From NCBI RefSeq assembly GCF_027409185.1, contig NC_084469.1, positions 83,053,918 to 83,117,917 on the forward strand: 64,000 nt of DNA, read 5' to 3'. The notes beneath the pieces are model-generated. The model was not told the DNA's origin, did no database searches, and saw only the letters and a list, made by a program, of their open reading frames with translations. The position numbers were made by a program, and so were the translations under genes. This stretch comes from Cynocephalus volans (taxonomy: Eukaryota > Chordata > Mammalia > Dermoptera > Cynocephalidae). Shown here piece by piece: positions 4,340 through 58,003 of this stretch (position 1 is its first letter; each line of letters begins with the position of its first letter).

Positions 4340-4510
4340 TTTTTTTTTTTTTTAAAGATGACCAGTAAGGGGATCTTAACCCTTGACTTAGTATTGTCAG
4401 CACCACGCTCTCCCAAGTGAGCTAACCAGCCATCCCAATATAGGGATCCGAACTCATGGCCTTGGTGTTATCAACACCACACTCTCCCAAGTGAGCCCCG
4501 GGCTGGCGCT
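4340..4510 (-). mobile_element. tRNA-Ile-like dimeric t-SINE
   Basis: On the minus strand two tRNA-like units lie head to tail, each with an A-box-like TGGCTCAC or AGCTCAC segment and a B-box-like GGTTCGGATCC or GGTTAAGATCC, then an A-rich tail. It is flanked by GGTAGACT at 4332-4339 and 4511-4518. Confidence 0.85.
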
Positions 4511-4550: not shown

Positions 4551-4718
4551 CGGGGGGTTTTTTTGTTGTTTTTTGGGGGGGGGGGGTTGTCCTTTTTTTG
4601 TGACCGGGCTCAGCCAGTGAGCGAACCAGCCATCCCTATATAGGATCCGAACCCGCGGCGGGAGCGCTGCTGCTCTCCCAGCGCCGCACTCTCCCAAGTG
4701 AGCCACGGGGTCGGCCCA
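4551..4718 (-). mobile_element. t-SINE with shortened second unit and C/A-rich tail
   Basis: The minus strand has a complete first tRNA-like unit (B box GGTTCGGATCC), then only the start of a second (GGTTCGCTCACTGGCTGAG) ending CGGTCAC. The tail is an unusual mix of A and C homopolymers. An imperfect TSD is seen (AAGATCA at 4544-4550 and 4719-4725). It is adjacent to the previous SINE in the same orientation. Confidence 0.82.
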
Positions 4719-12335: not shown

Positions 12336-12504
12336 GAAGTTCTCACTGTGGTTTTCGGAAGTCACTTAACGTATAGGTACCATATCTGCTCATCTATAAA
12401 AACCAACTTCCTCAAGAAAATTTGTGAAATATGTACTGAAAGAGAAGAAAGCTATGAAATCAAGAAGTTAAAAGAGAAAAAAATTCTTTATAAAGGATTA
12501 AGAG

Positions 12505-14037: not shown

Positions 14038-15019
14038 ATGAATAAACACCAAAAAAAAGACACCAGAAATACAAAAAAATCAAGAAAGTACACCACCAAA
14101 AGTTAATAAATCTCATACTCTAGATCCTATAGAACAAGAAGCCCTTGAAATAACTGACAAGGAATTTCGAGTGATAATTCTAAGGAAACTGAATGAGATA
14201 CAAGAAAACTCAGCTAGACATCATGATGAAATGAGGAAAAGTATACAGGATCTGAAAGAGGAAATATACAAGGAAATCAATGTCCTGAAAAAAAATGTAG
14301 CAGAACTTGCTGAACTGAAGAAGTTATTCAGCGAAATAAAAAACACAACGGAGAGTTTAACCAGCAGGCTTGTCGAAGTTGAAGAGAGAACCTCTGAACT
14401 TGAAGATGGGCTGTTTGAAATAACACAAGCAGACAAAAAGAAAGAAAAAAGAATCAAGGACATGGAAGAAAATCTGAGAGAGATATCAGACAACCTCAAG
14501 CGCTCAAATATCCGAGTCATGGGTATTCCAGAAGGGGAGGAAAATGGAGATTCCATTGAGAACATATTCAACAGAATAGTGGCAGAAAACTTCCCAGGTA
14601 TAGGAAAAATCACAGATCTTCAGATCCAGGAAGCTCAACGATCTCCAAATGTATTCAACCCAAAAAGGCCTTCTCCAAGACATGTCATAGTCAAATTAGC
14701 AAAACTCAGAGACAAAGAGAGAATCTTAAAAGCTGCAAGAGAGAAGCGTCAAATCACCTATAAGGGAGCCCCAATCAGGTTAACATCAGACTTTTCATCA
14801 CAAACCCTAAAAGCTAGAAAGGAATGGGATGATATTTTCAAAATACTAAAAGACAAAGATTGCCAGCCAAGAATACTCTACCCTGCAAGGCTATCCTTCC
14901 GAAATGAGGGGCAAATAGTATATTTCTCAGACAAACAAAAACTGCGGGAGTTCACTACCACAAGACCACCCTTACAAGAAATCCTCAAGGGAGTACTGGG
15001 TTTGGTTCCTGAAAAATAA
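14038..15019 (+). pseudogene. L1 ORF1 (RNA-binding ORF1p), frameshifted near its N-terminus
   Basis: The ATG at 14038 opens a very basic 22-codon frame that stops at TAA 14104-14106. The rest of ORF1 is open in the next frame and runs to the TAA ending at 15019. From start to stop is 982 nt. Removing one base gives exactly 327 codons including the stop, so a single extra T at about 14103-14104 is the simplest explanation. The long frame encodes a Lys/Glu-rich coiled coil (roughly 14130-14500), an RRM beginning SNIRVMGIPEGEE, and the C-terminal domain with ILYPARLSFRNEGQIVYF and the TTRPPLQEIL segment. ORF1p forms trimers that coat L1 RNA and are needed for retrotransposition. The first ATG in the long frame is at 14231 (262 codons), which would lose the basic N-terminus and part of the coiled coil. 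Sequencing error is an alternative. Confidence 0.85.
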
Positions 15020-15206
15020 CTACCACTGCCATAAAAACCTAAGAAAAATCTAAACCCGCTAGTACAATAAAAATGGCATTCATGAAGAGAAAACAAGCTA
15101 ACAAAAACACTATCTACAACCTAAGGAACCAACAAACAAAGAAACCAAACAGTAAATCAGAAAGCAAGGAACAAAAGACACCTAAGACAACCAAACAACC
15201 AATAAA

Positions 15207-18200
15207 ATGCTAGGAATAAATCAACACCTTTCAATAACAACTCTTAATGTTAAAGGCTTAAATTCCCCAATTAAAAGACACAGACTGGCTGACTGGATCA
15301 AAAAGCAGGACCCAACTATATGCTGCCTACAAGAGACCCACCTCACCCATAAAGATTCACACAGACTAAGAGTGAAAGGATGGAAAAAGATTTACCATGC
15401 AAACAGAAAAGAAAAACGAGCTGGAGTGGCTATTCTTATATCTGACAAAATAGACTTTAAACTAAAAACCATAAAAAGAGACAATGAGGGACACTACTTA
15501 ATGATAAAAGGACTGATCCATCAAGAAGACATAACAATCATAAATATGTACGCACCCAATGTTGGAGCAGCCAGATTTATAAAACAAACTCTATTAGACC
15601 TAAAGAAGGAAATAGACACTAATACCATAATAGCAGGGGACCTGAACACTCCACTGTCAATATTAGACAGATCATCTAGGCAAAGAATCAGTAGAGAAAC
15701 ACAAGATCTAAACAAGACTCTAGACCAATTGGAATTGGCAGATATCTACAGAACATTCCACCCAACAACCTCAGAATATTCATTCTTCTCATCAGCACAT
15801 GGATCATTCTCCAGGATAGATCACATATTAGGTCACAAATCAAGTCTCAATAAATTCAAAAAAATTGGAATTATCCCATGTATCTTCTCAGACCACAATG
15901 GATTAAAACTAGAAATTAATAACAAACAAAACTTTGGAAACTATACAAACACATGGAAATTAAACAGCATTCTACTTAATGACATATGGGTCCAAGAAGA
16001 AATCAAGCAGGAAATCAAAAAGTTTATTGAAACTAATGAAAACAATGATACATCATACCAAAACCTGTGGGATACTGCAAAAGCAGTATTGAGGGGAAAA
16101 TTTATTGCATTAAATGCTCACTTCAGAAGAATGGAAAGATGGCAAGTGAACAACCTAACACTTCACCTTAAAGAACTAGAAAAACAAGAACAATCCAATC
16201 CTAAAGTTAGCAGACGGAAAGAAATCATTAAGATCAGAGCAGAACTGAATGAAATTGAAAACCAAAAAACAATTCAAAAGATCAACGAATCAAAAAGTTG
16301 GTTTTTTGAAAAGATAAATAAAATTGACAAACCATTAGCATGGCTAACAAAAAAAAGAAGAGAGAAGACTCAAATAACAAAAATTAGAAATGAAAAAGGC
16401 GATATTACAACTGATTCATCTGAAATACAAGGAATCATTCGAGACTACTATAAACAACTATACGCCAACAAATTTGAAAATCTGGAGGAAATGGATAAAT
16501 TTCTGGACACACACAAGCTCCCAAAACTGAACCGTGAAGACGTAGAAAATTTGAACAGACCAATAACAATAAAGGAGATTGAAGCTGTTATCAGAAGGCT
16601 CCCAACAAAGAAAAGCCCAGGACCAGATGGATTCACAGCAGAATTTTACCAAACATTCAAAGAGGAATTGACACCGATTCTTTACAAACTATTCCAAAAG
16701 ATTGAAACAGACGCAAATCTCCCAAACTCATTCTATGAAGCAAACATCATCCTGATACCAAAACCAGGTAAAGATATAACCAAAAAAGAAAACTACAGGC
16801 CGATATCCTTGATGAATATAGATGCAAAAATCCTCACTAAAATACTAGCAAACAGAATACAGCAACACATACGAAAAATTATTCATCACGATCAAGTGGG
16901 ATTCATCCCAGGGATGCAAGGTTGGTTCAACATACGCAAATCAATAAATGTGATACACCATATTAATAAACTCAAACACAAGGACCATATGATCATCTCT
17001 ATAGATGCTGAAAAAGCATTTGATAAAGTTCAGCACTCATTCATGACAAAGACCCTCTATAAGTTAGGTATAGAGGGAAAGTATCTCAACATAATTAAAG
17101 CCATATATGACAAACCCACTGCCAATATCATCCTGAATGGGGAAAAGCTGAAAGCTTTTCCTTTAAGAACAGGCACTAGACAAGGATGCCCACTCTCACC
17201 ACTTCTATTCAACATAGTGTTGGAAGTACTAGCCAGAGCAATCAGAGAAGAGAAGGAAATAAAGGGCATCCAGATTGGAAAAGATGAAGTCAAACTGTCC
17301 CTGTTTGCAGATGACATGATCCTATATATCGGACAGCCTAAAACCTCTACAAAAAAACTGTTGGAATTGATAAATGATTTCAGCACAGTAGCAGGATACA
17401 AAATCAACACACAAAAATCAGTAGCATTTCTTTTCTCCAATAGTGAACATGCAGAAGGAGAAATCAAGAAAGCCTGCCCATTTACAATAGCCACCAAAAA
17501 AATAAAATACTTAGGAATTGAGTTAACCAAGGAGGTGAAAAATCTCTATAATGAGAACTACAAACCACTGCTGAGAGAAATTAGAGAGGATACAAGAAGA
17601 TGGAAAGATATTCCATGCTCTTGGATTGGAAGAATCAACATAGTGAAAATGTCCATACTACCCAAAGTGATATACAAATTCAATGCAATCCCCATCAAAA
17701 TTCCAAAGACATTTTTCTCAGAAATGGAAAAAACTATTCAGACATTTATATGGAACAATAAAAGACCACGCATAGCCAAAGCAATGCTCAGCAAAAAAAA
17801 TAAAGCTGGAGGCATAACACTACCTGACTTTAAGCTATACTACAAAGCTATAATAACCAAAACAGTATGGTACTGGCATAAAAACAGACACACTGACCAA
17901 TGGAATAGAATAGAGAATCCAGAAATCAACCCACACACTTACTGCCATCTGATCTTTGACAAAGGCACCAAGCCTATTCAGTGGCGAAGGGACTGCCTCT
18001 TCAGCAAGTGGTGCTGGGATACCTGGATATCGATATGCAGGAGAATGAAACTAGATCCATACCTCTCACCGTATACTAAAATCAACTCAAAATGGATTAA
18101 GGATTTAAATATACACCCTGAGACAATAAAACTTCTTAAAGAAAACATAGGAGAAACACTTCAGGAAATAGGACTGGGCACAGACTTCATGAATACGACC

Positions 18201-19034
18201 CCAAAAGCACGGGCAACCAAAGGAAAAATAAACAAATGGGATTATATCAAACTAAAAAGCTTCTGCACAGCAAAAGAAACAATTAAAAGAGTTAAAAGAC
18301 AACCAACAGAGTGGGAGAAAATATTTGCAAAATATACATCTGACAAAGGATTAATATCCAGAATATATAAGGAACTCAAACAACTTTACAAGAAGAAAAC
18401 AAGCAACCCAATTAAAAAATGGGCAAAAGAGCTAAGTAGGCATTTCTCTAAGGAAGATATCCAAATGGCCAACAGACATATGAAAAAATGCTCAACATCA
18501 CTCAGCATCCGGGAAATGCAAATCAAAACCACATTGAGATACCATCTAACCCCAGTTAGGATGGCTAAAATCCAAAAGACTCTGAACGATAAATGCTGGC
18601 GAGGCTGCGGAGAAAAAGGAACTCTCATACATTGTTGGTGGGACTGCAAAATGGTGCAGCCTCTATGGAAAATGGTATGGAGGTTCCTTAAACAATTGCA
18701 AATAGATCTACCATACGACCCAGCCATCCCACTGTTGGGAATATACCCAGAGGAATGGAAATCATCAAGTCGAAGGTATACCTGTTCCCCAATGTTCATC
18801 GCAGCACTCTTTACAATAGCCAAGAGTTGGAACCAGCCCAAATGCCCATCATCAGATGAGTGGATACGGAAAATGTGGTACATCTACACAATGGAATACT
18901 ACTCAGCTATAAAAACGAATGAAATACTGCCATTTGCAACAACATGGATGGACCTTGAGAGAATTATATTAAGTGAAACAAGTCAGGCACAGAAAGAGAA
19001 ATACCACATGTTCTCACTTATTGGAGGGAGCTAA
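15207..19034 (+). CDS. L1 ORF2p (endonuclease-reverse transcriptase), intact 1275 codons
   Basis: A single open frame of 1275 codons, the same length as human L1 ORF2p and with matching residue numbers. The APE-type endonuclease (1-239) keeps N14, E43, Y115, D145, N147, D205, S228, D229 and H230; position 192, Thr in human, is Ser. The reverse transcriptase region carries the FADD box at residues 700-703 (D702, D703), preceded by [16 protein letters not shown]. The C-terminus has the cysteine-rich segment [18 protein letters not shown] and ends FSLIGGS. The protein nicks target DNA and copies L1 RNA at the nick. Translation depends on the L1 transcript and, in known L1s, on unconventional reinitiation after ORF1; the 187-bp spacer is longer than the human one. 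No stop or frameshift is seen. Activity is untested. Confidence 0.96.
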
Positions 19035-19267
19035 AAATTAATATATAAATTCACACACACACATACACACACACACACAAACCGGGGGGGGGGAAGAAGA
19101 TATAACAACCACAATTATTTGAAGTTGATACAACAAGCAAACAGAAAGGACATTGTCGGGGGGGAGGGGGGAGGGAGAAGGGAGGGAGGTTTTGGTGATG
19201 AGAAGCAATAATCAGCTACAATGTATATCGACAAAATAAAATTTTAAAAAAAAAATAAATAAATAAA
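19035..19267 (+). other. L1 3' UTR with polypurine tract and A-rich tail
   Basis: About 230 bp. A CA-repeat run (19052-19080), a G run (19082-19093), a G-rich polypurine tract (19156-19191, many GGG runs), the family 3' end ending ATCGACAAAATAAAATTTT, AATAAA at 19235-19240, then A/T-rich tail. G-rich 3' UTR tracts able to form quadruplexes are a known shared trait of mammalian L1s. Confidence 0.85.
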
Positions 19268-19999
19268 TAAAGGATTAAGAGATAGTCATATTATCTATGG
19301 CTTCCCCTTCCATTTATAATAAAATCCAAATATCTTCAAGGCTCCCAAGGCCCTGCTTGTCCCAGCCCTTCTCCTCTTACCCCTTCCCATCATTCACAAT
19401 GCTTTGTCCACAATGGCCTTCTCAGTGCTCCTCAAATACCCAGTTCTACCTAGCCCCAGGATCCTAGCCTACAGACTTGCTCACCCCAATTTCTGTCTTT
19501 ACTCCTATTTCCTCCTTTAGCTTAAATGTCACTTCCAGAGAGGCCTTCCTTGAAGTCTTCATCCCAGTCCTGCAGGAAATGGGAAGCTAATGAGTGGTGT
19601 TGAGAAAGGGAGTAACAAGGGTCAGTTATTCATTTTGGAAAAATCACCCAGGCAGCAACTTGTAGGAGGTATTGACTAGGGAGGTAGTACAATGGGAGTT
19701 GATGACTACGGACAGCAAAGTTCAGTAGGACATAATTTGAGGAGTCCAGAAGAGAAAAAAATTGCATGTATGCAAAAACACTGATCACCTTGAGCTCTGC
19801 ATTGAGTTCCGTAAGGTTAAGAGCTCTGTAACACTGGTACTATGTATTACAAACTTTCTAAGACATCAGAGGGGTCCAGTAAACATTAGTTAATTTTAAA
19901 TGAATGAGAGAAAAATAGTGAATATCAACAAGATGTAAATAGTAATCTCTACCATTTACTTATGGAGTAGTAGGCACCATAGTTGATGAAGAGAAGGAA

Positions 20000-27779: not shown

Positions 27780-27983
27780 AGCGTAGGGGCGAGCTTCACC
27801 TTAACTCCACTGACTTCCTAGCTAGCGTCAGAGGGGCGGCCCCGGGGGAGAGTGAGAGAGGAGCCGGTGCCAGCTTGTAGGCGCCTCGGGGCTGAGCGCT
27901 TTTTCTCTCGGCTGGTGGCGCGGTGCTTTGCGGTTGCCGTCAAGCACGGAGCTGGGCCGGCGGGCGGGGGCCGAGGGGCTGCC

Positions 27984-28191
27984 ATGGCGGCGGCGGGCCG
28001 GCTGCCTAGCTCCTGGGCGCTATTGGCGCTGCTCCTTGTGGGGCTCGCGCTGCTGGGAGTCGGGCCGGTCCCGGCGCGGGCGCTGCACAACGTCACGGCC
28101 GAGCTCTTTGGGGCTGAGGCCTGGGGCACCCTGGCGGCCTTCGGGGACCTCAACTCCGACAAGCAGACGGACCTCTTCGTGCTGCGGGAAA
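27984..28191 (+). CDS. ITFG1: ITFG1 exon 1 (signal peptide and start of first FG-GAP blade)
   Basis: The ATG at 27984 has a good Kozak context (GCCATGG) and opens 69 codons plus one base, ending at a GTCAGT donor (28192). The protein starts MAAAGRLPSSWALLALLLVG, with a long Leu/Ala/Gly hydrophobic stretch ending near VPARA: a signal peptide of about 33 residues. The sequon NVT follows at residues 36-38. The segment AAFGDLNSDKQTDLFVL is the first FG-GAP/VCBS-type motif, with an Asp/Asn-rich Ca2+-loop pattern. The family member is ITFG1 (TIP/LINKIN), a type I membrane glycoprotein of about 610 residues with a beta-propeller-like ectodomain, linked to cell adhesion and T-cell modulation. The same frame is open upstream to a GTG at 27852, but the ATG matches the known protein start. 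Identification is secure because the later exons follow in order and in phase. Confidence 0.96.
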
Positions 28192-29894
28192 GTCAGTGCT
28201 TGCCGGGCCCTCCCTCTGTCCGCTGTCCGTGTGCCCCTCCCATTGTTCCCCACACCCCTTACCCCGATGGCCAGTCCTCCTGCATTTCCTGTCCCTTCTC
28301 TCCCAGCCCTGGGGCCCTCCCTTTATCTCCAGCATTCCTGACAGCTTGCCTTTTTCTTCCATTTTTTCCAACCTCGGGGCCTGACCCGCCCACCCCACAA
28401 TTTGACCCACCCCCAAAAGCCGTGAGTACAGCCCAGTTGTTTTTTTCTTGGGAAGCCCGCGGCCTTACCCACGCACCTTCTCCTCCCCCATGGTATCATC
28501 TGCTTTCTAAAGCCTTCCTAATTCCCAGGAGTCCTTGTAGCTTGCCTCCTACGTTCGTTCCCAAGGCCCTTCGTTCCCCTCTGCTTCACTTCAATCTTTC
28601 TTCCCCTTTGATGAGCAGGTAAAGAGACAACTTGACAGTTTCTTATCATAGGAGACTTCTCTCAGCCTCCTCGCTTACTTAATTCACCCGCCCCTCCCTT
28701 TGTCAGGGTCCCAGCTTTCTTGAAACTACTGTGCCCTCTCAAGGTCCTAAACACTACACAGCTCACACAAGCATTTTGCAGGGACCGCTGGCAAACCCAA
28801 TGCATACTTGGGGAAGCATTCTCAAACTACAGACTCTTTTCCCTCCTGTTTTGTGTGTGTGTGTGTGTGTGTGTGTGTACACCTGGCCATTCCTCACCTT
28901 GGCCACCACCCTAGTCTTCCAAATCTCTGCTTTCTTTGCTAACTTGTGGTTCTTGGAAGTTCTTTGTTTCAACCATCACTAAACTAACTTGTAAATCTTG
29001 ATGCTAACAATGGGTATTAAGGGGTTTTAACATTCTTGAGTATCCATAGAAGCAGGTGCTGTGTAAAGGTCAAGGCCATGAAGGAAGGATGTGAAAAGCT
29101 GGCATAGAGCTTGACTGACAGAATCCTGACCCAGACTTTTTGGGGCCCTTGCTAGGACCCCAGAGCCTCTTGTGCATCCTGGATAGTCTCCGTATCTTTG
29201 AATGACACCCTGTATTGCAAGAAGGGCACATACTGCCAAACCTGTGTCTACTCCGTCCAAAGTGGATACAGAAACTATTTGACTTTAAAGATGGCCTATA
29301 TTTGATTAGACAATTTCAAAAGTCTGTCCCAGTGAGTGCTAATTAAGCTCCGAGAATGCATCAACCTGGGGGATGTTACCATAGGAGCCATAGGAAGAGG
29401 GGCTTGGAGGATTCAGCTTTTTCTGCTTACATGCTTAATCATGTCCTTGTTGTCAGATACCTACAATGGGAGTTCGTTTGTTGGTGCCATACTTCTGCAT
29501 GATGAAGTAAACAGCCTTATAAGGGGCAGCATTGGTAGGTTCAGGGAAGACAAGTCTTGACATACAGTATAATTATAAGGCATGTTCTTTATATGTTTCT
29601 TTTGAGTCAAGCAGTTTGACTGCTGGCAGAATCCATTGGCTTGAGTTCATCTTGATCAGCTACATTTTCCATGTTCATCCTTACTGTTTCTCTGCTGCTT
29701 TCAACATTGAACATGTGATATATTGTTAGGCATCCCCAATAGACTAGTAGGATTATCCTTGAGAGGGCAGATGTACTGGAATAGAATTAAAAAGTTTTTT
29801 TGTTGAGAACAGTGCCCAGAAAGCTTCTTGTAATTACTGATTGGATGTCTTACCAGGAAATATTTTTCCAATATCATTTATTTGCTTCTTTTAG
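28192..29894 (+). other. ITFG1: ITFG1 intron 1
   Basis: Begins GTCAGT and ends CTTTTAG. The first 430 bp are pyrimidine-rich and happen to stay open in the exon 1 frame to a TAA at 28620. It also contains a (TG)n tract at 28852-28878 and otherwise unclassified unique-looking sequence. Confidence 0.85.
28852..28878 (+). repeat. (TG)n microsatellite
   Basis: About 13 uninterrupted TG units in ITFG1 intron 1. Confidence 0.95.
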
Positions 29895-29967: not shown

Positions 29968-32900
29968 GTAAGTACAAATGTTTTTGTTTCTCTAAAGCAT
30001 TAGTACTTAGTGTAATAATGTATATGCAATAGCTGGTTAGATTGTCTTTGAAATCAGTCTTACTTTTACCTGTGGTGGTGTGATACAAAACCATTAGTTA
30101 TAAGATATGAGTAGCAAATAATTCCTTAGGAAAAAATAGAGTACCAGAGTTTAAAGATGACTTAATTCTAGAAAAATTAGTAATTTTGAGTAGATTAAGG
30201 TTTGTTCCTATATAAACACTATTCATTTCCTTGCAATGTAATGTGCTTTCTTGCATGTGTTGGGATTTGTCCTTCACTCTGAGTGTGTCTGTGAGAACAG
30301 GTCACTCACAAGAGACTCATGGTGTCAACCATGTGTTATGTGTGGGAGAAGAGGAACCTAGTTTGCAGTGGGAAAAAGATCAATGACTTCTAATTTTTTT
30401 GTTTATTGACTAATATAGATGGTGGAGTTTTTAAGGTTGATTTTGAAGGGATTCAAATCAGGGGTTTGAAATTATCTGAAATTTTTCAATATTCAAGTAA
30501 TAGTTCTTATTTTTCTTTTGTATGGTTGGCATTGCATGAAACAGTGACCTCCAATGATAGTGAACCAACACAATTTTGAAACTACAACAAGCAAGGATTG
30601 TTTGCTGTTTGAATTCAAGGAGGAAGAGATGGGTCAGTGCAGGCCAAAGTGGCCGCTTCCAGAGAGTCATGGAAGTTGAGTTTGGCCTTAGTATGAGTAA
30701 AGTTTAAGAGAGAGTGCTCAAGTTTGGGAACACAGCATTTACAAGAGAGCCAGTAAAGCACCATGTTATGAAGAAGGGGTGGAAAGATTTGCCTGACAGA
30801 GGTGGAGGAGGATACACTTTGGAAAGTTATGAACTAGGCAGATGAAATCAGGGCAGACTAAGAACCATCATAAATATCAGAAAGAGTTTAAACTCAGTCC
30901 CATGAGAAGAAGGGAATAATTACAGGTCCTTGTGCAAAGGAGAGATGATGAAAACAGTATTTTAAATTGAATTACTTGTTAACCATGTACAGGATGAATT
31001 GGTATGTAGATGAACAGAGACTACTTAGGAAACTTTTTAAAAAGTTCCTCTGTGGGCCGAGCCCGTGGCGCTCGGGAGAGTGCGGCGCTGGGAGCGCAGC
31101 GACGCTCCCGCCGCAGGTTCGGATCCTGTATAGGAATGGCCGGATCCTGTATAGGAATGGCGGGTGCACTCACTGGCTGAGTGCCGGTCACGAAAAAGAC
31201 CAAAAAAAAAAGTTCCTCTGTGGACTAATTAGTGCTCAGACGCTACAATATTTAATGTAAAATCAAATACATGTAGGGAAAAAAATGGCCTTGAGAACAT
31301 AGAGACGAAAGTTATAAATTGATAAATAGGAACTTATGCCTCTTGAGAAATGTTTCTGGATACTGGATGTGAGCATGCTTGGAGTGGGGAAGGAATAGAA
31401 GTTGATAAATATTATCTATAAGAAATGAACTAACTGCCTAGAAGTGATTTTTCTTGAAAGATTAGAAGTTAAGGAAATTTGTAGGATATAACAGGCTTGA
31501 ACTCTGCTAAGTTGAAACAAAAATCTGAATTAATGTCTTTTTCTTTGATTAATGTAATGTTAATTGTTTTATATTCTTTTAAAATTTAGGAACTCTTTTT
31601 TGTATTTTAATTTAGAATATTTTTCAAAGTAAAAATAACTATTCTTTACCCTTTTTCTCCCCTACTTTTCTGTTCCTCTCAGATCAACCACTTTTAAAAC
31701 TTTTAGCTATTTCTTCTGATGTTTATTTTCATATTTTAAAATAAATTTTTATACTGTAATTTCTTGAATTACCATTTTTTAATCTTTATCTCTTGATTTT
31801 TTTTGTTAGCGTAGATAAAGATTTAGCATATTTAATTATCTCCATTGTCCCAATACAGTTATATCATAATTTTTAGTTAAATTAGTAATTGTTGTTTATA
31901 TTTTAACTTTGTAGTTTTTATGGACTTCAGAGCCTGTAGTGTACATTATTTTATTTCTTGTACAGTTTTCCTCACCTGGAGTAAATTTTTTTTTTTTTCC
32001 AAAATACTCTGCGTAGTTTTCTGTGTACATATCCTTAATTTCTTTGCAGATGTTTCATTCTGTTGGCCATATGATCATCATGCATTTTTGTTTTTGCCAT
32101 TGGGTCCTCTCCACTCCTGTCCAATCTGGATTCATTCTCTAGGCCTTCTGCAGACATACTATTTCGAGACTTTCCCTTTGCTGTTCTTTGTTCAATCCCT
32201 ATTTCTTGGATCTTGTGCCATTTTTGTCTTCACTTCTCATTTACTTCAATGAAGTGTGTCCCTCAGGAAGTTCCTGAGAAAAGATGCATGTTAGGTCCTT
32301 GCACGTCCAAAAACTTTTTCTGCTCACTCTTTACATTTTAGTTGGCTTAATGTCTTCTAGCTTCATGGGTTGCTGTTTTAAAATCCAATCCTATTTTTTC
32401 TCCTAATCCTTCCAGTGTAACTTGTTTTATTTTTGATTTTGGAAGCTATTAGAATCTTTTCTTTATCCCTTTTGCTCTGATTTTATGGTGATGTGCTTTG
32501 GTGTAGATTATTTTTCTTTTATTATGCAAGGGATTAGGTGGCCCTTTCAAACGGGAGGCCTCAGTGGAGGCTTTTTGAAATATTCTTATATTACTTCTTT
32601 GATAATTTTTGTCCTTCTTTCTTTCAGTAATTTCTATCAGTTGGTTATTGGTCTGCCTGGGTCCATCCTTTATTCCTTTAGCTTATCTGGTTGTTTTTTG
32701 TTGTTGTTTTTGTTTTACTTTCCAGGAGTTTTCTCAACTTTCTCTTCTTAGCCTTCTATTAATTTTTTATGTTAGCTATTATATTTTTAATTTCCAAGGT
32801 TTTCTTTGTTCTCTTACTTTTGTTTTCTCTTAGCATGCTATTTTATTTTAATTGACACACTTTCTTCTGTCTCAAGTGTAACTTTGAAATTTTCTTTGGT

Positions 32901-39900: not shown

Positions 39901-42900
39901 AAACTCTATCCACTATTTAAGTATAGTGAGCTATTGTCAATCTGGAAGGACTAAATCACTATTTTCCATCTAACATTTCACTTATTCTCACTTTCTAACC
40001 AATGACTGATTTAATTAATCATCCTTTATTTTTACTGCTGATTTTATTTGTTTGCCGATGCATTTCATATAATATTATAAATATTTATCTTAATGAAATA
40101 ATAATATGATGTATCACTTAAATCTATTGAGTAGAAAGAATATGAAAATTATGATGAGTTGTATAACAGAAAATAAAACCAAATAATCCTCAAGGCGCAG
40201 CTTTTAACTTTGTAATCAGCATTGGTACTCATAATCTTAACCAAAAAAGGTGGCTTTGAAATGATTCATGTTTTCATAGGTTTCCCCTTCCTTTCTCACC
40301 CCATATACCATTTATATTTTTAATGCTGTTGTTAAAAGGAATCCATTAGAACTTGAGAAATCAGGTTTTTATCAGTATTTCCATGGAAACATTACATCAG
40401 TTTTCTAACTCTTCTCTTTTCCTAAAGAAACTTTGCTATTGGAGATAAATTGATTTATTATCCCAATGTTTCTCACCCAAGCCTTTTTCTTTTCAAAATT
40501 ATACCACAGAGATAGTGAAAAGCTTTTGGCAGATGACTTAAATTTTTATATGCTGTGATTATTTGAAGTGGCATGACATAATTTCTTAAGGATCCATAAT
40601 TTTGATTCCTGGAGTCCCACCAGATGCTTTTGAGGGGTCAGTTAAATGACCGAAGATTCTCTGGTGATTTATCATACTGCTTTGTTTTGGATGCTAGTTG
40701 GTAGTATTATATTTAAATTAAATTTTGTTTGTTTCTAAGTAAATGGTTTAAGATGTTGCCCTCAAAATTTAGTCATCTTGCTTTTATTTAAATCTTAATT
40801 TTTGCATGTGTATTTATAGTAAACATTCAGAAAGATATTATCCTTTTGAGAAAAGGATAGTTTTATGCTTTCTATGCAAATAAATTTGATAGTAACACTT
40901 CATCATAAAGGTAATAATTGATAATATTTAAAAGTGTCTTGAATTCAGCATATTTTTCTTAGCATGTATCAGAATTATGTGTCTTCCTTTGAGAGGAAGC
41001 CATTTTGTTTTATCTCATTAGTATTTGCATATGTATTATAAAAGAGTTCATTTTAAAACTGGTATAGTTAGAAAAAGTCATTTATACAGCAGACTTTGAA
41101 TAAGATTAGTATATATTACAATTTCAATGTAGGGTAAAATGCATCAGAATCATTTATACATTTATAATTTCTGAAAATATAGGTTAAGTCCTCTTTTATT
41201 AGATTCATTTTGCATTTTTTAAAAGTTTATGTGCTGTTGAAAATGCCCTATAAATACTTGATTCTTAACAGTATGAAGGTCTAAGTTCTGTGCTCTAGTT
41301 CCTGAGTGAGTTACATGGTAGTCCTGAGTGGAGGTGTGGGTTCATTTGTGGGCTTATGCTTCTTCACATTGCCTGCTCATTTGTAGTATCTGCCTGTCCT
41401 AGGAGCCAGTGCTGCTAGTCATGTCTCTTAGGTGTAATATTACTGTTGCATACCCTGTAGAGGTAGGAGTATTGAGACAAAGTACAGATATGGCTGAAAA
41501 AAATCTCCATATTTCCTCTTATGAATATAAGATGTTATTGCTGAGAGGTCCTTAAGATTTTAGGCAAATCACCTTCTTGATCCTTGGGTTTCATAGCTTT
41601 TCTTATCTAAAATTGATGTGTCTGAGAATGTACCTATTTTCACTGTAACTTTCTTCTCCTTCATATATATTCCTTACCCTTCTTAAATCTTACCAATGGT
41701 GCATTTCCTGGTGAGTAAAAACCCATATGCACCAAACACAGGGGAAACCTCCTTTTATGGGTAATCCAGATATCCGAAATAACAGAACATCTAGTCTTTC
41801 TATTTCTTATATGTATTTCTCTTAATGTGAAGCTTGACTGCAAAAGCAGGCATTTTGGTTCACATAGAGATAGCCTAAATTAAGATGTACTAGAATGGAG
41901 TCATAGTAGAAAGACATTTTGTTTTAATGACTTTGCCTCTTTCGTCCCTTGACTATTGTGAAAGAATCAATTATTATTGTTGAGAGAGCCAAGCAAAGAG
42001 AGCATCCATAAGAAACACCGAATTCCAAAAGGCAGATCTTTCAGCTATTCTTAGTACTCTATCCCTAGGACACATCATTAAATGGAAAGAAGTTACCTTT
42101 CATTCCAAAGTAATTTTGGATGATGACAATGATTGTTTTCAGTGTGACTGGAATGTTCTCTAAGGCTAAAACATTTTTGTAATTTCTTTCATATTAGACA
42201 TGCATTTTTCTGTAATGTAGCATTATATTTTATCAAATCACATCAAGAAAATTCCATTTAAAGTTAACCATCTTATGAAATTTTATCTTTACTGTTTTCT
42301 GTATCATATTAATTAAAAATAAATTTACATGCTGGTTTCTGAGCCAAATAATTTTTTGCAGTATATAGCTTTCCCTTTTATTAAAGTCACAGGAAAAGTT
42401 TGCTGTGTTTGATGAAATGAGAAAGAAATGGTATTATTTCTGATTTTTATTCTCTATTTTTATTTAATTACTCCAAAATCCAGACCCAGAGTTCAATGCG
42501 CAAACACATTTACTGAAGGACTATTATGTCATTTATCATACAAATTGTAACAAATTATTTTGCTGCATTACATTGCATTGCTATAAGTTAACTAATAATA
42601 AATAGGATGTTGTTTTATGATCGGGGTTTTATAACCTATTTTATAAAAATAGATAAATGAATTTTATCAGAATTGCATTATTTTAATCTTGACTGCTTTT
42701 GGTTAATAATCTATCCTACACTATATATTCTGTAATTTTGTAGTATTTTTTATAATATTCCTTGAAACACTTAGGTTTTTTTATTAAGACATAATTGATT
42801 ATATATATTTGCGGGGTACAGAGTTGAATATCAATATCCATTCACAATATGTAATGATCAAATCAGGATAATTAGTATATTCATTATTAGAAAATGTGAT

Positions 42901-45900
42901 CATTCATTGTGACCCTTAACCAATTTCTTGTGAACCGTTTTCCCCCTCCACCTTTCCCACCTCTAGTCTGTTCTTTTTGAAAAGTTTAATTTATTATTGT
43001 GATTTTTGTTTCTTTCTTGCTTTCTGTTTTTTTAATTTATTTATTTTTTAGCTCCCACTTATGAGAGAAGACATGAGGTATTTCTCTTTCTATGCCTGGC
43101 TTATTTCACTCAACATAATTTTCTTGAAGCTCATCCATGTTGCTATGAATGGCAGAATTTCATTCTTTTTTTATGGCAGTGTAATATTTCATTGGGTGTA
43201 TATACCACATTTTTCTTATCCAGTCATCCATTGATAGACATTTAGGTTGGTTCCAACTCTTGGCTATTGTGAATAGAGCTGAGATAAACATGGGAGTGCA
43301 GGTATCCCTTCAACAAGATGATTTCCATTCCTATGGGAATCCCACCAGCAGTGGGATTGCCAGATTGTATGGCAGTTCTATCTATAGTTGTTTGAGAAAC
43401 CTCCATACTGGCTGCACTAATTTACAGTCCTACCAACAGTGTAGGATGGTTCCCCTTTCTCTGCATCTTCACCAGCATTTGTTATTCTCTGTCTTTGATA
43501 ATAGCCAGTCTAACTGGGGTGAGATGGTATCTCAGGGTAGTTTTGATTTGCATTTCCTAGATGCCTAGTGATATTGAGCATTTTCTCGTGTACCTGTTGG
43601 CCATTTGTATGTATTCCTTCGAGAAATGTCTATGCAGCTCCTTTGCCCATTTTTTATTCAGGTTAATTGTATTTCTACTGTTAAGTTGTTTGAGTTCCTT
43701 GTATATTTTGGATATTAATCCCTTGCTGGATGCATAGTTTGCGAATATTTTCTCCCACTCCGGTGTCTTTTCTCTCTGTTTGTTAGTTGTTTCTTTTGCT
43801 GTGCAGAAGCTTTGTAGTTTGATATATCCCGTTTGTTTATTTTTCCTTTTGTTGCCTGTGATTTGGGGGTCAAATTCATGAAGTCTATGCCCAGTCCTAC
43901 TTCCTGCAATGTTTCCCCTATGTTTTCTTCTAGGAGTTATATAGTTTCAGGTCTTATATTTAAGTCTTTAATCCATTTTGAGTTGATTTTGGTATATTGT
44001 GAGAGTTACGGGTCTAGTTTCATTCTTCTAACATGGATATCCAGTTTTTCTCAGCACCATTTATTGAAGAGGCTGTCCTTTCTTCAATGTATGTTCTTGG
44101 CACCTTTCTCAAAGATCAGCTGGCTGTAAGTATGTGGATTGATTTCTGGGTTCTTTATTCTGTTCCATTGGTCCATGTGTCTTTTTCTATGCCAGTACCA
44201 TGCTGTTTTTGTTAGTATAATCTCCAGCATTATTTTTTTTGCTCAGGATTGCCTTTGCTATTTGTGGTCTTTTATTGTTCCATATGAATATTAGGATTGT
44301 TTTTCTATTTCTGTGAAGAATGTCTTTGGTATTTTGATGGGGATTGCATTGAATCTGTAGATCACTTTGGGTAGTATGGACATTTTCACAATGTTAATTC
44401 TTTCAGACCAAGAACATGGAAAGTCGTTCCCTCTTTTTGTGTCCTCTTTAATTTATTTCAGTAGTGATCTGTAGTTCTCATTGTAGAGACCTTTCACCTT
44501 CTGGGTTAAATTGATTCCTGATGTATTTCTGATGATTACTGTAAATCGGCTTGCTTTCTTGATTTTTCTGCTAGTTCACTATTAGAGTATAAAAATGCTA
44601 CTGATTTTTGTGTGTTGATTTTGTATCCTGCAACTTTACTGAAATTGTTTATCAGCTCTACGAGTTTTTCGGTAAAGTCAATAGGTTTTTCTAGTTATGA
44701 GGTTATGTCATCTGCAAACAGGACAGTTTGACTTTGTCTTTTCCAATCTGGATATCCTTTATTTCTTTCCTTTGCCTGATTGTTCTGGCTAGTACTTCCA
44801 ATACTATGGTAAATAGGAGTGGTGAGAGTGGGCATCCCTGTCTTGTTCTTGTTTTTAAGGGATTTTTCCCATTCAGGATGATATTGGTGGTGGGTTTGTC
44901 ATATATGGCTTTTATTGTGCTGAGATACTTTCCTTTTATATTTAATTTGCTGAGAGTCTGTATCGTGAAGGGATGTTGAATTTTGTCACTTTTTGTGCAT
45001 CTATTGAAATCATATGGTTTTTGTCCTTGGTTTTTGTTGATGTGGTATATCACATTTATTAATTTGCATATGTCGAATCATCCTTGTATCCTCAAACCAT
45101 CCTTGCATCCTCAAACCATTCTTACATCCCCAGGAAGAATCCCACTTGATCATAGTGTATAATTTTTTTGATGTGTTGCTGTATTCTGTTTCTTAATATC
45201 TTGTTGAGGATTTTTGCATCTGTGTTTATCGAGAAAGTAGACCTGCAGTTTTCTTTTTTGTTGTTGTATATTTGTCTGATTTTGGTATTAGGGTGATGCT
45301 GGCCTCATAGAATGAGTTTGGGAGAATGGCCTCTGTTTCAATTTTTTTTAAATAGGTTTAAAAGGATTGGTGTTAATTTCTCTTTAAAAGTTTGATAGAT
45401 TTCAGCAATGAAGCCATCCAGTCCTTGGCTTTTTTCTATTGGAAGACTACTAATTGCCACCTCAACCTCATTGGTTGTTACCAGTCTGTTCAGGTTTTCT
45501 GTTTCTTCTTGGTTCAGTCTTGGTAGTTTGTATGTGTCTAGAAATTTATTCATTTCCTCCAGGTTTTCAAATTTGTTGGCATATACTTGTTCATAATAAT
45601 CTCTAATAATTCTTTATTTTTCTGTGGTATCGGTCATGATGTCTCCTTTTTCATTTCTGACTTTTATTACTTGGGTCTTCTTTCTCCTTTTTTTAGTTAT
45701 TCTAGCTGGAGGTTTATCTATTTTATCTCCTTGAAAAACTAACGTTTTGTTTTATTGATCTTTTATTTATTTATTTATTTTTGGTCTCTATTTCATTTAG
45801 TTGTGCTCTGAGCTTCTTTCCATCAACTAATTTGGGGATTGGATTGTTCTTGTTTTTCTAGTTCTTTGAGGTGTAACATTGGGTTGTTTATTTGGAGTCT

Positions 45901-46552
45901 CACTGTTCTTTTGTTGTGTTGCAATAAACTTCTGTCTTAGTATTGCTTTTGCAGTACCCAACAGGTTTTGGTATGATATGTCTTTATTTTCATTAGTTTC
46001 AAGAAAATTTTTAATTTCCTGTTTAATTTCTTCTTTGACCCATGGGTCATTCAGGAGCATGTTGTTTAATTTTCATGTATTTATGCTGTTTCCAAAGCTT
46101 CATTTTTATTGATTCCTAGTATTAATCTATTGTGGTCTGGAAAGATACTTGAAACGATTTCAGTCTTTTTAAATTTGTTGAGTCTTGATTTGTGATCTAA
46201 CATGAGCCCTATCCTAGAGAATGTTCTGTGTGCTGATGAGAAGAATGTATATTCTGTAGCTGCAGGATGAAATGTTCTGTAGATTTCTGCCAAATCTAGT
46301 TTTGTCTAAAGTGTAGTTATAATCCAGTTTTTCTCTAATTTGTTACCTGGATGCTCTCTCCACCCCTCTGAGAGAGGGGTGTTGAGGTCCTCACCTATGA
46401 TTATATTGGGATCTATCTCTCTCTTTAGGTCTAAGAGTTTTTGACTTACCTATCTAGGTGTTCCAGTGTAGGGTGCATCTATATTTATGATTGTTACATT
46501 TTCTTGCATGATAGACCCGTTAGTCATTATATAATGACTTTTCTGCTACATT

Positions 46553-48026
46553 TTTTAATCTTATTTTTTATCTTATTTTTTAAAATTTACTTATTATTAT
46601 TATTTTACGTTCTAAGATGTTGCTGCAGAGCAGTTGGGGAAGGAGGGGAAAAGGGATGGGAATAAGGTGGGGAGAGGAGGACAGAGGGAGTGGGGAGTGT
46701 GGTCGCGGCCTGTGGGACCCTCCTCATTCCGTCAGGGGAGCCCAAGGGGCTTCCAGCGGTGGCTGAGTTATGGCTGGCAGGATGCAGACATCAGGGAAGA
46801 TTGGCTGATGCCCCTCACTGCCCCAGCTCAGGAGTCTGTGGTTCTTCCACCAGTGACCTGGTGGTTCTCGCTGAGCTGGATCTGGATGTCGAGGGCATGG
46901 CTGAGGCCCTCAACACCCCCATTCCAGCTTGGGAGCCCATGGTGCTTCCTGGTGGGTCAGTGGTCATCACTGGGCTGGATGTGGACATCATGGGGGAGTG
47001 GCTCGGGCCTTCATCCTCCTACCACCCCAGTTTGGGAGCCTGGGGGGCTTCTGGTCCTTCTACATTTTATAGGTGTTCTTTACTGGTGTTAGACCTTTAC
47101 TGGTTAATATCAGAACTTTGTCTCTGATCTGTGGGGTTTTTAATTTTTCTTTCAGTTTTGTGTTGGATTATTTGCTATTCCCACCATTTAAACTCTGCCC
47201 TGGAACTAATTTATTATCCTTTGGTTATTTCTAAAATGGGGGAACTAAGTGTGGAAACCAGCCCTTGAGACCTGTGGTTGAGTTAAATTGCTGCTTTGCT
47301 GATGATTCTGAGAAGACTTTTTGTGCAGCTCAGGTTTTAATTGTTGACCTTGTAAGCACTTCAGGGTCTTGTGAGGTCTGGTATACCTGGGTTGTGTGGA
47401 AACTCTGGTCCAGGCTTGAGTCTTTTCAGCAAACTACACCCCATGCAGGTCTGCATTCCTGACTAGTCTCCACTGAGTGGGACTGTGCTGATTGGAGGGC
47501 AGATCAATTGTCCATGCTGTTCCCCAGTGTTCCCCAGTGAGCCAGTCTCCCCCACTCCTTGCACTCCAAAACACTACCCATGGGATAGTCCATATGCTGG
47601 TCCCTCGCGATGACTCACTGTTCTGAGTGGCTCCTTTTTTCAGTTCTTGTGGCGCCTCACTCCTATGTGGTCCATGGGAACCCTGTTAGTGGACTTGCTG
47701 GCCTAGGGGCCACCAAGGCCCTCTTCTCCCATGTAGCCTCCAAGCAACTTCACACAAAGGGTACAGAAGTGGCTTTTGCCAGCTCTTGCTCTGTGTGCAC
47801 ACTGGGGCCAGTCTTGAAGTGTTTGGGGGTCAAAACAGTTGGAGTGGTCTTTTCTTTCTCTCATCGTGGCTTTTCCCACCTTCATGAACTCCATTCGTCT
47901 CTCCTCTTCCCGTGAGCTCTAGCAGCCCTAGCTTGGCAGTCATTGCTTTTTAATAGTTGTAAATTGGTTGATTGTGGGAGAGTGTGACGCTGGGTACCAT
48001 CTATTCTACCATCTTGATTGGAAGTC
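46553..48026 (-). mobile_element. SVA-like composite retroelement (L1-type 5' end, VNTR, unique 3' end, A-rich tail)
   Basis: A 1474-bp block inserted in the old L1 and flanked by the 11-bp duplication TCTGCTACATT (46542-46552 and 48027-48037). On the minus strand it begins GACTTCCAATCAAGATGG, which shares CAAGATGG with the L1 5' end. About 0.95 kb of non-coding sequence follows, then a tandem repeat of about 95-103 bp (units starting on the plus strand at 46736, 46831, 46931 and 47034), then a unique 3' end (ACTGCTCTGCAGCAACATC) and an A-rich tail (46553-46612). It has no open frame of its own. The same 3' end and repeat unit recur at 57737-58003. These are the marks of a non-autonomous, L1-mobilised family. 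Its name, if it has one, is unknown to me. Confidence 0.75.
46736..47060 (-). repeat. Tandem repeat (VNTR) of about 100 bp inside the composite element
   Basis: On the plus strand, units begin with GGGAGCC or a variant at 46736, 46831, 46931 and 47034 (spacings 95, 100 and 103 bp). Each continues with a GG-CTTCC-like segment and a GGCTGGATG or GCTGGATCTGGATG core. About three and a third copies, diverged from one another. Confidence 0.75.
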
Positions 48027-49409
48027 TCTGCTACATTGCTTTTTAAGGTATTAATCTCTTTGTAAATTTCCTCCTTCATATTTTGGATAGGTTTTCTCAT
48101 TTTGTTCTGCTAAGTGAGTCTTCTTGTATCTCATTGTGTTTCTTTAAGATTGTTCTGAATTCCTTTTCAGATATTTCAAGGTTTTCTTGCTATTTGGGGT
48201 CTGGTACTTGAGAATTACTTTTTTCTTTGGCGTCATATTTTCTTGTTTTTTCTTATTTCTACTATGCCTACATTGATGTCTGGTCACCTGATGAAGCAGT
48301 AGTTTCTTCTACTACTATGGAGTGACTTTTGAAGAGAGAGCATGTTTTAGTTTTGGTTCTGGGTAGACACAGTAGTGTGGTCTCTGTGTGGTTACTTCTG
48401 CTGATTCAAAGTCAGAATTGTCTCTGAGTGCCTCTGTGGCCTGGGCACTGGGGCACTCAGTAGCTTCTTGCTGAAGTGAATGACACTGTGTTGGGTCATC
48501 GATGTTGGCAAGATCATGAGTTCCTGGGAGAAATGCCTAGGTGCCCTGTTGCTCCTTGGGCAAGGTAAGTGTCTCCGAGTTAACTTGTTGGCCCCTCAGC
48601 TATTGTCCAGTGACCCTGCTAGGTGTACTAGGGTATACTGTTGCTCCTCAGCTTGAATGGGTAAGCCTGGGTGGGTATATCTTTCTTCCAGGCAGAGGCT
48701 CCTCCTGAGTCCTTGCTGCTCCCAGTTGGGGGATGGGTTGGTGGTGGCTGGGTGTGTTATTCTGTACTCTATTTGGCTATCCTAAGTTTCTGCACTCACC
48801 AGTGGTTCTGCGCATGTGTGCCTCTGGGTCCAGACAGTAACATGGGCTGCACAAGTAGTTCCCACCCCAAGGGGCAAGGGGCTGCGCTCGTTCATCTCTT
48901 TCCTCATGCCTAGTAAAACACAGTAACACTCGTATCTGGGTGAGGTGGATCTGGTGGCACCCAGGCTGGGTGGCAAGAGCCACAGGGTCTGCAGTGAGGA
49001 ACAGGCTGAATTGCTGTGCAGGGAGACAGGAGCAGCAGTAGCAGGAGGGGCCATGTTGGTAGAGGCCATGGTGGGAGGGGCTGCTGATGGAGCCATGTGG
49101 CCGCAGTGGCAACAGGGAGAGCCATGAGGTGGGAGGAACAGCTGTGGGAGCGGTGGAGGCTGGGGCAGCAAGACAGGCAGTCACTCGGGCACTGGACATT
49201 GGCTGCAGTAACTACAGCATTGTTAGCAGCCAACACATGTTAACACATGTATTAGAATTTTTAAAATGAGTCAAACTCTTTCTGGCAGAAAATAACTTTC
49301 ATTAGTAGAATGATTTGACAGTAAGGACTGGCTTTGCTAATTGGGTTATATGTCAGACATTTTCCCTAAATTAAATGATCTAAATTAGCAACTTTAAATT
49401 TTTTCTTAT

Positions 49410-52600: not shown

Positions 52601-53008
52601 AGATTTTCTTTATTACCATGGCCTTATATTACGGTATTTTTAAAAATAACAAAATTAGTTTTTATGAATACTGCTTAGTTTTGATTTTACTGTCTTGTGT
52701 AGGTTAAAGTGTATTTAGGCCCAGTGTGTGCTAAAATGAGTGTAGAAAGAGGTTATTGGGAAGAGGTTGCTGTTTGTAGAACACAGACACTTTGCATAGA
52801 GAAAATTTTTCTGATGAATGCTTATTCTTTTTTCCATATTCTACCTGCCAAGAACAAATTAGTCTATGTGTGTCTCTGATTTCCAAAGATATCAAAACCA
52901 AATTCACAAATACCTTGTTAGCTATCCAGCTAATTGGATACCGTGATAATAATAACGTTGCATTTAGCTTTAAATTGCTCTTTGGAGATGGCATATTTAT
53001 GGTTTCTT

Positions 53009-53174
53009 TTTTTTTTTTTAAAAAGATGATCGGTAAGGGGATCTTAACCCTTGACTTGGTGTTGTGAGCACCACGCTCAGCCAGTGAGCGAACCGGCCAT
53101 CCGTATATGGGATCCGAACCCGGGGCCTTGGTGTTCTCAGCACCACACTCTCCCGAGTGAGCCACGGGCCGGCC
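53009..53174 (-). mobile_element. tRNA-Ile-like dimeric t-SINE
   Basis: Minus-strand dimer as at 4340-4510: GGCCGGCCCGTGGCTCAC start, first B box GGGTTCGGATCCC, second unit beginning GGTTCGCTCAC with GGGTTAAGATCC, then tail. Perfect TSD CATATTTATGGTTTCT at 52992-53007 and 53175-53190. Confidence 0.93.
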
Positions 53175-53699
53175 CATATTTATGGTTTCTTATCGGACTG
53201 GAACATACTACTATGGAAGAAAATAGCAAATTCTGAATAGAGAAGAATAAGAGATGCTAATTAAGAGTATCATTCAGTCCTGCCCTTTATTTGCTAACCA
53301 CTTCATGGGAGCCAGGACCTGGATAGGCAGTGTAGATACAAATATGAGTCAGGGTTTCTGGAGGAGCTTTATACTGTAAAAGAAAACATTCCTAAAGTAG
53401 CTGTAGTGCACACCAAAGCGCTCTTAGTGGAGAAAAGTATAATAGAAAAATAGTAAGAGAAGAGAAGCTGATTTGAGTAGGGCTTGATAGATAGGAATGC
53501 CTTTGACAGTGTGATATTTTCAACTGATGAGGAATTGTGGACATACGGTTTTATTTAAACTTACTCTTCCTTCGTTAGTTGATAGTAGTCTACCGGTGTT
53601 ACCTTCTGGTTTTGATAATTACATTATGGTTGTATTTTATATACATGTTAAACATTAGAGGAAACTAGATGAGGGATACAGGGGAACTTTGTGCTATTG

Positions 53700-57736: not shown

Positions 57737-58003
57737 CCTTTTTAAAAAAAATTTTATTTATTATTATTATTTTTTACATTCTAAGATGTTGTGGAGCAGT
57801 TGGGGGGAGGCAAAGAGGTGAAAGGGGTGGGGGATGGGGAAGGAGAAGAAGCAGGGATAGGAGGACATGGTCTAGGCCCATGGCACCCCCCTGATTCTGG
57901 TAGGGGAGCCTAGGGGACTTCCGGAGGCTGCTCATTAGTGGCTGGATGCAGACTTGGCATGGTGTGGATGAGGCCCTGGGTGCTTCCAGCAGCGATAGAG
58001 CAT
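57737..58003 (-). mobile_element. Second copy of the composite element, 5'-truncated
   Basis: Shares with 46553-47040 the A/T-rich tail, the CATTCTAAGATGTTG-type 3' end, the GGGG-rich segment and one tandem-repeat unit (GGGAGCC at 57904). It stops inside the repeat at about 58003. Imperfect TSD TAGAGCTTTT / TAGAGCATTT (57727-57736 and 58004-58013). This shows that the 3' end is a true family end. Confidence 0.75.

Follow-up and report, generated by a model that had tools for sequence, protein, structure and literature searches.

The window analysed here, a stretch of 64,000 nucleotides of the Cynocephalus volans genome (C18:83053918-83117917), contains on its minus strand a composite retroelement of 1474 bp with both ends present, which has been inserted into an older L1 (Table 1). 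The 11-bp target-site duplication (TSD), the A-rich tail and the L1-like leader with CAAGATGG are all located where the first-pass annotation had placed them. The same annotation had described about 3.3 tandem units of 95-103 bp in the centre of the element. Tandem units are indeed present, three near-whole ones and a partial fourth, but the near-whole units have 92-103 bp and the consensus unit has 105 bp. Because the units have diverged, the VNTR is not reported by Tandem Repeats Finder when the window is analysed at the default threshold. As delimited in Table 1, the 5' domain extends slightly past the fusion, since its last few bases (from GACCAG onward) are VNTR-side sequence. The absence of any open frame, which had also been claimed, holds for the sense strand, on which the element contains no ORF of at least 120 aa, but not for the other strand. 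Two antisense ORFs of 152 and 145 aa cross the VNTR (46634-47127, plus strand), whose 105-bp unit is a multiple of three; these ORFs are probably incidental. Inside the element we found no similarity to ORF1 or ORF2 of the L1s in the window and no match to tRNA or SRP RNA. The sole Rfam match in the window, to the tRNA model, lies outside the element, an observation with little power to exclude an Alu-like part.

Table 1. Positions of the composite element and its parts, the L1 that it interrupts, and the second family copy in the window
Feature	Position	Strand	Basis
Composite nonautonomous retroelement, both ends present	46553..48026	-	Inspection, genome search, end mapping of copies
5' domain, a complete L1 5'UTR, begins GACTTCCAATCAAGATGG	47052..48026 (element 1-975)	-	Collinear with L1 5'UTRs that lead into ORF1
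VNTR unit 1	46938..47040	-	Unit alignment (coordinates converted from locus)
VNTR unit 2	46844..46937	-	Unit alignment
VNTR unit 3	46743..46834	-	Unit alignment
Partial fourth unit, opens the 3' domain	46701..46742	-	3' consensus aligned to unit; bounds by reading
Pyrimidine-rich tract	46636..46700	-	Read from sequence; other copies compared
Unique 3' terminus AACTGCTCTGCAGCAACATCTTAGAACGTAAAA	46603..46635	-	Inspection, genome search, terminal 20-mer count
TAA/A-rich tail	46553..46602	-	Read from sequence
TSD, 5' copy, native L1 ORF1 sequence, AATGTAGCAGA	48027..48037	-	Inspection, duplication scoring
TSD, 3' copy, AATGTAGCAGA (plus strand TCTGCTACATT)	46542..46552	-	Inspection, duplication scoring
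Target, 5' part of older L1 (5'UTR, ORF1 start)	48038..49220	-	71.7% to ORF1 of the L1 at ~12505-19268; 5' limit by eye
Target, 3' part of the same older L1 (ORF2 to 3' end)	42800..46541	-	76.5% to ORF2; 3' limit by eye
Second family copy, 5'-truncated inside the VNTR	57739..57995	-	Self-comparison; bounds by eye

The target L1 reads as ORF1 up to 48027 and as ORF2 from 46541, and the approximately 1.2 kb from the middle of ORF1 to the start of ORF2 are missing between the two flanks. The joined flanks were searched in the genome as an empty site, resulting in 1,110 candidates, of which 40 were scored. Apart from two hits that represent the locus itself, all of these (38) end at query base 90-92, at the edge of the TSD, so that a shared deletion is not seen among them. 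The deletion begins within 0-2 nt of the TSD. In this one case it either accompanied the insertion, with its edge corresponding to the second-strand cut, or it fell there later by chance.

A second copy of the family in the window matches the element with 71.6% identity over 218 bp (E 1e-19, window self-comparison). The repetition of the 3' end reported for 57737-58003 is therefore real, but the bounds given in Table 1 are better. By eye, this copy is bordered on both sides by the imperfect duplication TAGAGC(A)TTTTC(C/A). The terminal 20-mer, with up to three mismatches allowed, is found at only these two places of the window (0.01 expected), and the 3' domain is, as previously noted, without a match to the L1s in the window. 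A family of just two copies, as judged from the window alone, was considered and overturned by the genome search.

The window also contains a young-looking full-length L1 (12505-19268) with a GC-rich 5'UTR and an ORF2 that is open over 1275 aa. It is flanked by a 13-bp duplication, AAAGGATTAAGAG, at 12492-12504 and 19269-19281 (by eye), and its ORF1 frame starts at a GTG (14171) so that ORF1 may be broken. Copies of a tRNA-derived SINE, partly dimeric, are found at 4338-4507, 4608-4718, 31053-31146, and 53006-53176; we take them to resemble the colugo CYN SINE. The tRNA-Val predicted by ARAGORN and the Rfam tRNA match, both at 4357-4432, are located inside a SINE and probably do not represent a tRNA gene. 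The ORF at 27852-28622 contains what is presumably exon 1 of ITFG1, in which case the element would be in or near the first intron of this gene and antisense to it.

Copies in the genome

The genome (2.81 Gb in 130 contigs) was searched with the whole element, with its 3' 141 bp, and with the 271 bp preceding the VNTR. These queries gave 12,291, 1,495, and 4,265 first-look candidates, respectively, and in each case all 40 candidates that were scored match, the element's own place included. Except for the element itself, the main pieces of the whole-element matches have 77-85% identity. The 38 loci obtained with the whole-element or the pre-VNTR query represent 37 distinct copies (L039 is the window copy again), and all 38 have the 5' domain, the middle part, and the 3' end in the same order, with arrays that are in some loci too short or too diverged to match that of the window copy. 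In total, 51 distinct copies with both ends were assembled out of 68 loci. The 17 dropped loci comprise the window copy twice (L009, L039) and 15 copies with a truncation, an interruption, or an end beyond the limits of the locus. The order is constant in all 51 copies: a 5' domain of about 975 bp, the VNTR, a pyrimidine tract, a unique 3' end, and a TAA/A-rich tail. The consensus of their 5' ends is GACTTC(C/T)GATCAAGATGGC. Because the copies were picked by score, the set is biased toward the best preserved ones.

The 25-mer of the fusion point between 5' domain and VNTR occurs, with up to three mismatches, at 5,003 places in the genome (2504 + 2499), compared with a single place for the reversed control. 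By inspection, the L1 consensus differs from this 25-mer at five positions, and L1s should therefore rarely be counted. Given 5,003 occurrences of one fusion point and an order that is constant in 38 of 38 loci, it is hardly conceivable that an L1 5' fragment, a minisatellite, and the end of a pseudogene were brought together by chance. The element in the window is one among several thousand old copies of a composite element. The 25-mer test is passed by 38 of the 51 well-preserved copies, and the pre-VNTR part is kept in 20 of 30 loci that were chosen on the 3' end. Extrapolating from the 5,003 fusion points and these two fractions, the family total is perhaps near 10,000. Sixteen of the 30 loci (the query's copy included) reach the 5' end, 12 are short, and in two the copy continues past the locus boundary; these are the best-scoring loci, and the full-length share has to be read accordingly. 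In viral contigs the exact 3' 20-mer has no match, and an exact 17-mer of the 5' domain is found in one contig (L082), which is taken as chance.

The 5' domain, the array, and the 3' end

The first-pass annotation had recognised an L1-like leader at the 5' end, to be compared with the L1 5'UTRs nearby. The match to an L1 5'UTR extends over the whole domain and not just over the leader, but neither of the two long L1s in the window has this 5'UTR. In the degenerate L1 of locus L069, a 5'UTR collinear with the whole 5' domain is followed by stretches matching ORF1 and ORF2. The homologous join of 5'UTR and ORF1 in L1s was searched as a pattern and found at 145 places in the genome (control 0). 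Twelve of these loci were fetched, and all match the 5' domain at least in part: the alignment spans the full domain in five, reaches position 817-900 in three, and covers less than 60% in four (L076-L079). The L1 5'UTR consensus and the element consensus are identical at 839 of 959 positions (87.5%). They diverge at CTAGAAG, where the L1 goes on toward ORF1 and the element continues into the VNTR. The 5' domain is an entire L1 5'UTR, and degenerate members of its lineage are still present in the genome. At the break point the L1 reads CTAGAAGAGGTAGCAG. Splicing was considered as the way in which the 5'UTR was fused to the VNTR, but the bases kept at the fusion do not fit a GT donor. Within the 150 nt at the start of the copies, uninterrupted pyrimidines extend over at most 11-16 nt. 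The three types of L1 5'UTR in the window (12510-14035, 48270-49225, and that of the element at 47052-48026) have no mutual match at E 1e-3, suggesting that L1 promoters have been replaced repeatedly.

A tree was computed from the 51 composites and nine L1 5'UTRs, with the short L076-L079 omitted. The composites form one group (100/100) that is placed beside five L1s and apart from four, L069 among them, in a tree whose bootstrap is unsettled and whose root is only drawn. Since the 51 composites are a single clade, one fusion probably founded the family, a single event being the simplest reading. Against the overall account of the family stand the failure to find the exact donor L1 (the stem of the composites is 0.11 long and the L1 consensus lies 12.5% away) and the motif AAGATGG near the 5' end, which only 29 of the 51 copies keep.

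An L1 5'UTR as the 5' half would also be expected if the element were an internal-deletion derivative of one L1 that has lost both ORFs. In that case the VNTR and the 3' end would have served an L1 lineage as its 3'UTR, and the search for such an L1, which could be rare or extinct, was short of exhaustive. However, among the 30 loci selected by their 3' end there is not one with an ORF2 that continues into the VNTR within a single element. An L1 adjoins the copy in three loci. In two of these (L027 and L033) ORF2 resumes beyond the copy, which has therefore inserted into an L1; the third (L017) has, directly next to the copy, a young L1 with a 3'UTR and A-tail of its own. The L1 in L069 has an ordinary 3'UTR. 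Similarity to the VNTR or the 3' end is also absent from the 3' regions fetched for five donor-like L1s, of which two (L084, L087) have an ordinary G-rich 3'UTR like that of L069, one is filled by a young L1, one is without an L1 match, and one is unclear. Taken together, an internal deletion is improbable, and the fusion of an L1 5'UTR to the array remains the preferred reading.

The consensus unit of the array is 105 bp long and GC-rich, and 105 whole units have on average 82% identity to it. Counting partial matches, 13, 12, 14, 5, 4, and 3 copies contain one, two, three, four, five, and six units, respectively, and the span from the middle part to the 3' domain ranges from 15 to 707 bp over the 51 copies (in at least one of them, L041, the span includes a SINE). 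Tandem Repeats Finder reports the array in only 12 of the 51 copies. Position-specific units were considered and rejected, because the identity of first units to first units (0.783) is no higher than that of any units between copies (0.785) or of units within a copy (0.788). That units are as different within as between copies suggests an array that was near-homogeneous in the source copies and diverged after insertion. An origin of the unit from L1 was also rejected, as the unit has no match at E 1 to the 5' consensus of the element or to the two long L1s in the window. With the 3' consensus as query, all matches are C-rich or A/T-rich.

The 3' domain consists of the partial unit, a pyrimidine tract of 27-68 nt, AACTGCTCCACAACAACATCTTAGAATGTAAAA, and the TAA/A-rich tail. 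AATAAA or ATTAAA is present near the 3' end in 39 of the 51 copies, a count from an A/T-rich tail and without a control. Among the 30 loci selected by their 3' end, ten begin within the array or within the 3' end itself; the possibility that they carry an alternative 5' domain on the same VNTR and 3' end was considered and rejected. Within up to 800 bp upstream of these ten loci and of the second window copy nothing is common at E 1e-3 except VNTR-like bits of 20 and 35 bp. Duplications are visible by eye in about six of the ten, so that these loci look like ordinary 5' truncations. One copy (L041, G000:C2:187245304 region) carries a dimeric SINE at the end of the 5' domain just before the array, with CACCTATA on either side. 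This SINE was thus active after the copy had been inserted.

Insertion, origin, and age

TSDs with a score of at least 11 were found in 22 of the 51 copies compared with 2 of 255 mismatched flank pairs, and at score 12 in 14 copies compared with one control. The excess is weak at score 8 (33 of 51 versus 77 of 255), and 29 of the 51 copies have no TSD at score 11 or above. The 22 TSDs are 11-18 bp long and 19 of them begin with A, which is partly forced because the A-rich tail adjoins. The first-pass annotation had proposed an independent composite family of SVA-like design, which should be recognisable by many genomic copies with a common 3' end, a variable number of VNTR units, and L1-type TSDs. 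All three have been found, and the proposal is supported by the copies, their fixed order, the TSDs, and the L1 5'UTR. The element very probably belongs to a composite retrotransposon family, non-LTR and nonautonomous, that arose independently; one fusion probably founded it, and L1 would have mobilised it.

In the founding event, the complete 5'UTR of an L1 lineage would have been cut at CTAGAAG, just before ORF1, and joined to GC-rich 105-bp units in tandem, with a pyrimidine tract and a short unique 3' end closing the array. The L1 5'UTR is a putative internal RNA polymerase II promoter starting at the first base of the element, so that each full-length copy would carry its own promoter. 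The RNA of the element would be polyadenylated at its own 3' end and bound in trans by L1 proteins. Insertion would proceed by target-primed reverse transcription, generating the A-rich tails, the 11-18 bp TSDs, and the 5' truncations, and the array would gain and lose units.

The 5' domains have a mean K2P distance of 10.7% from their consensus, and of 8.4% outside CG, TG, and CA sites. If neutral sites in mammals change at about 2.2e-9 per site and year, a divergence of 8.4% would correspond to near 40 million years; the true mean divergence is likely higher because the copies were chosen by score. The family is old and probably inactive today. The 3' core without the tail has a K2P distance of 20.6% (0.206), compared with 10.7% (0.107) for the 5' domain, and this difference speaks against the proposed origin. 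Much of the divergence of the 3' core is located in the GC-rich partial unit and the pyrimidine tract, which align poorly, and the last 30 sites have 8.1% (0.081).

Comparison with known retroelements

An autonomous L1 is not present, given neither a sense ORF of at least 120 aa nor any ORF similarity. HAL1 (half-L1) elements are L1-derived and nonautonomous and have kept ORF1. The composite element, in contrast, has no similarity to the ORF1 of the window L1 or to ORF2, but the VNTR and another 3' end in their place. Neither tRNA-derived nor 7SL-derived SINEs fit, as no tRNA or SRP match was obtained in the element. LTR elements have LTRs and a duplication of fixed length (4-6 bp), whereas the composite element has A-rich tails and TSDs of variable length (11-18 bp).

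The 3' parts of the VNTR composites comprise HERV-K, L1/Alu, PTGR2, or FRAM. LAVA has its L1 portion in the 3' part, in contrast to the element, in which L1 contributes the 5'UTR and stands at the 5' end. Like SVA, the element is nonautonomous, has a central, GC-rich, and variable VNTR, an A-tail, and L1-type TSDs, and is present in thousands of copies. Unlike SVA, it has a whole L1 5'UTR as 5' domain, a unit of 105 bp, and the pyrimidine tract on the 3' side. Its full-length share (16 of 30 best-scoring loci) resembles that of SVA in the human reference, for which the accessible part of PMC10681720 gives 1927 of 5107. The LAVA, PVA, and FVA families of gibbons, as described in the available sections of PMC4432496, are likewise VNTR composites with family-specific 3' ends that are moved by L1, and the element resembles them in having its own 3' end. 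However, they have the CT/Alu-like 5' part of SVA, which according to the same sections is carried by all four hominoid VNTR-composite families.

The common design of a composite with a central GC-rich VNTR and L1-type insertion could indicate that the element is a member of the hominoid SVA/LAVA group or shares an older ancestor with it. However, it lacks a CT-hexamer/Alu-like 5' part, all 51 copies beginning with the L1 5'UTR instead, its unit has 105 bp compared with 30-50 bp (PMC4432496, in part), and its host is not a hominoid. Such a relationship is very improbable. The element works like SVA and LAVA but is not a member of their group, from which it is set apart by its structure and by the published descriptions as far as available. 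The VNTR composites are called hominoid-specific (PMC4432496; PMC7353768, each in the portion available). SVA2 of macaque and gibbon, a VNTR-bearing relative of SVA, was used to establish the ancestral repeat units (PMC4432496, same portion), and its presence in macaque qualifies the phrase, which that paper applies to the four composite families.

Chimeras of L1 with other RNAs have the foreign sequence 5' of L1 and are single insertions, as far as described in the accessible text of PMC13174262, in which the word colugo does not occur. In contrast, the fusion described here became a replicating family and has the L1 sequence on the 5' side. By analogy to such chimeras (PMC13174262, in part), the founder may have arisen by a fusion involving L1 RNA. 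In the titles and beginnings of abstracts among the matches listed, from a search that covers subscription literature thinly, no VNTR composite outside hominoids is named. The search returned no paper on VNTR retrotransposons in colugo and none on LINE-1 or transposable elements in Galeopterus variegatus. We consider the chances slightly in favour of the family being a second, independent invention of a VNTR composite outside hominoids, made by a single fusion of a complete L1 5'UTR with an array of GC-rich 105-bp units and without an Alu-like or CT-hexamer part.

If this is true, a GC-rich VNTR together with a promoter would be a recurrent and selectable recipe for hijacking L1. An independent family allows asking which features of SVA matter, and because L1s with the donor-type 5'UTR and ORF1 are present in the same genome, the promoter and the fusion can be compared side by side. 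The designs of the element and of SVA have only the GC-rich array and the L1-type insertion in common, and the array is therefore the prime candidate for what makes a good L1 substrate.
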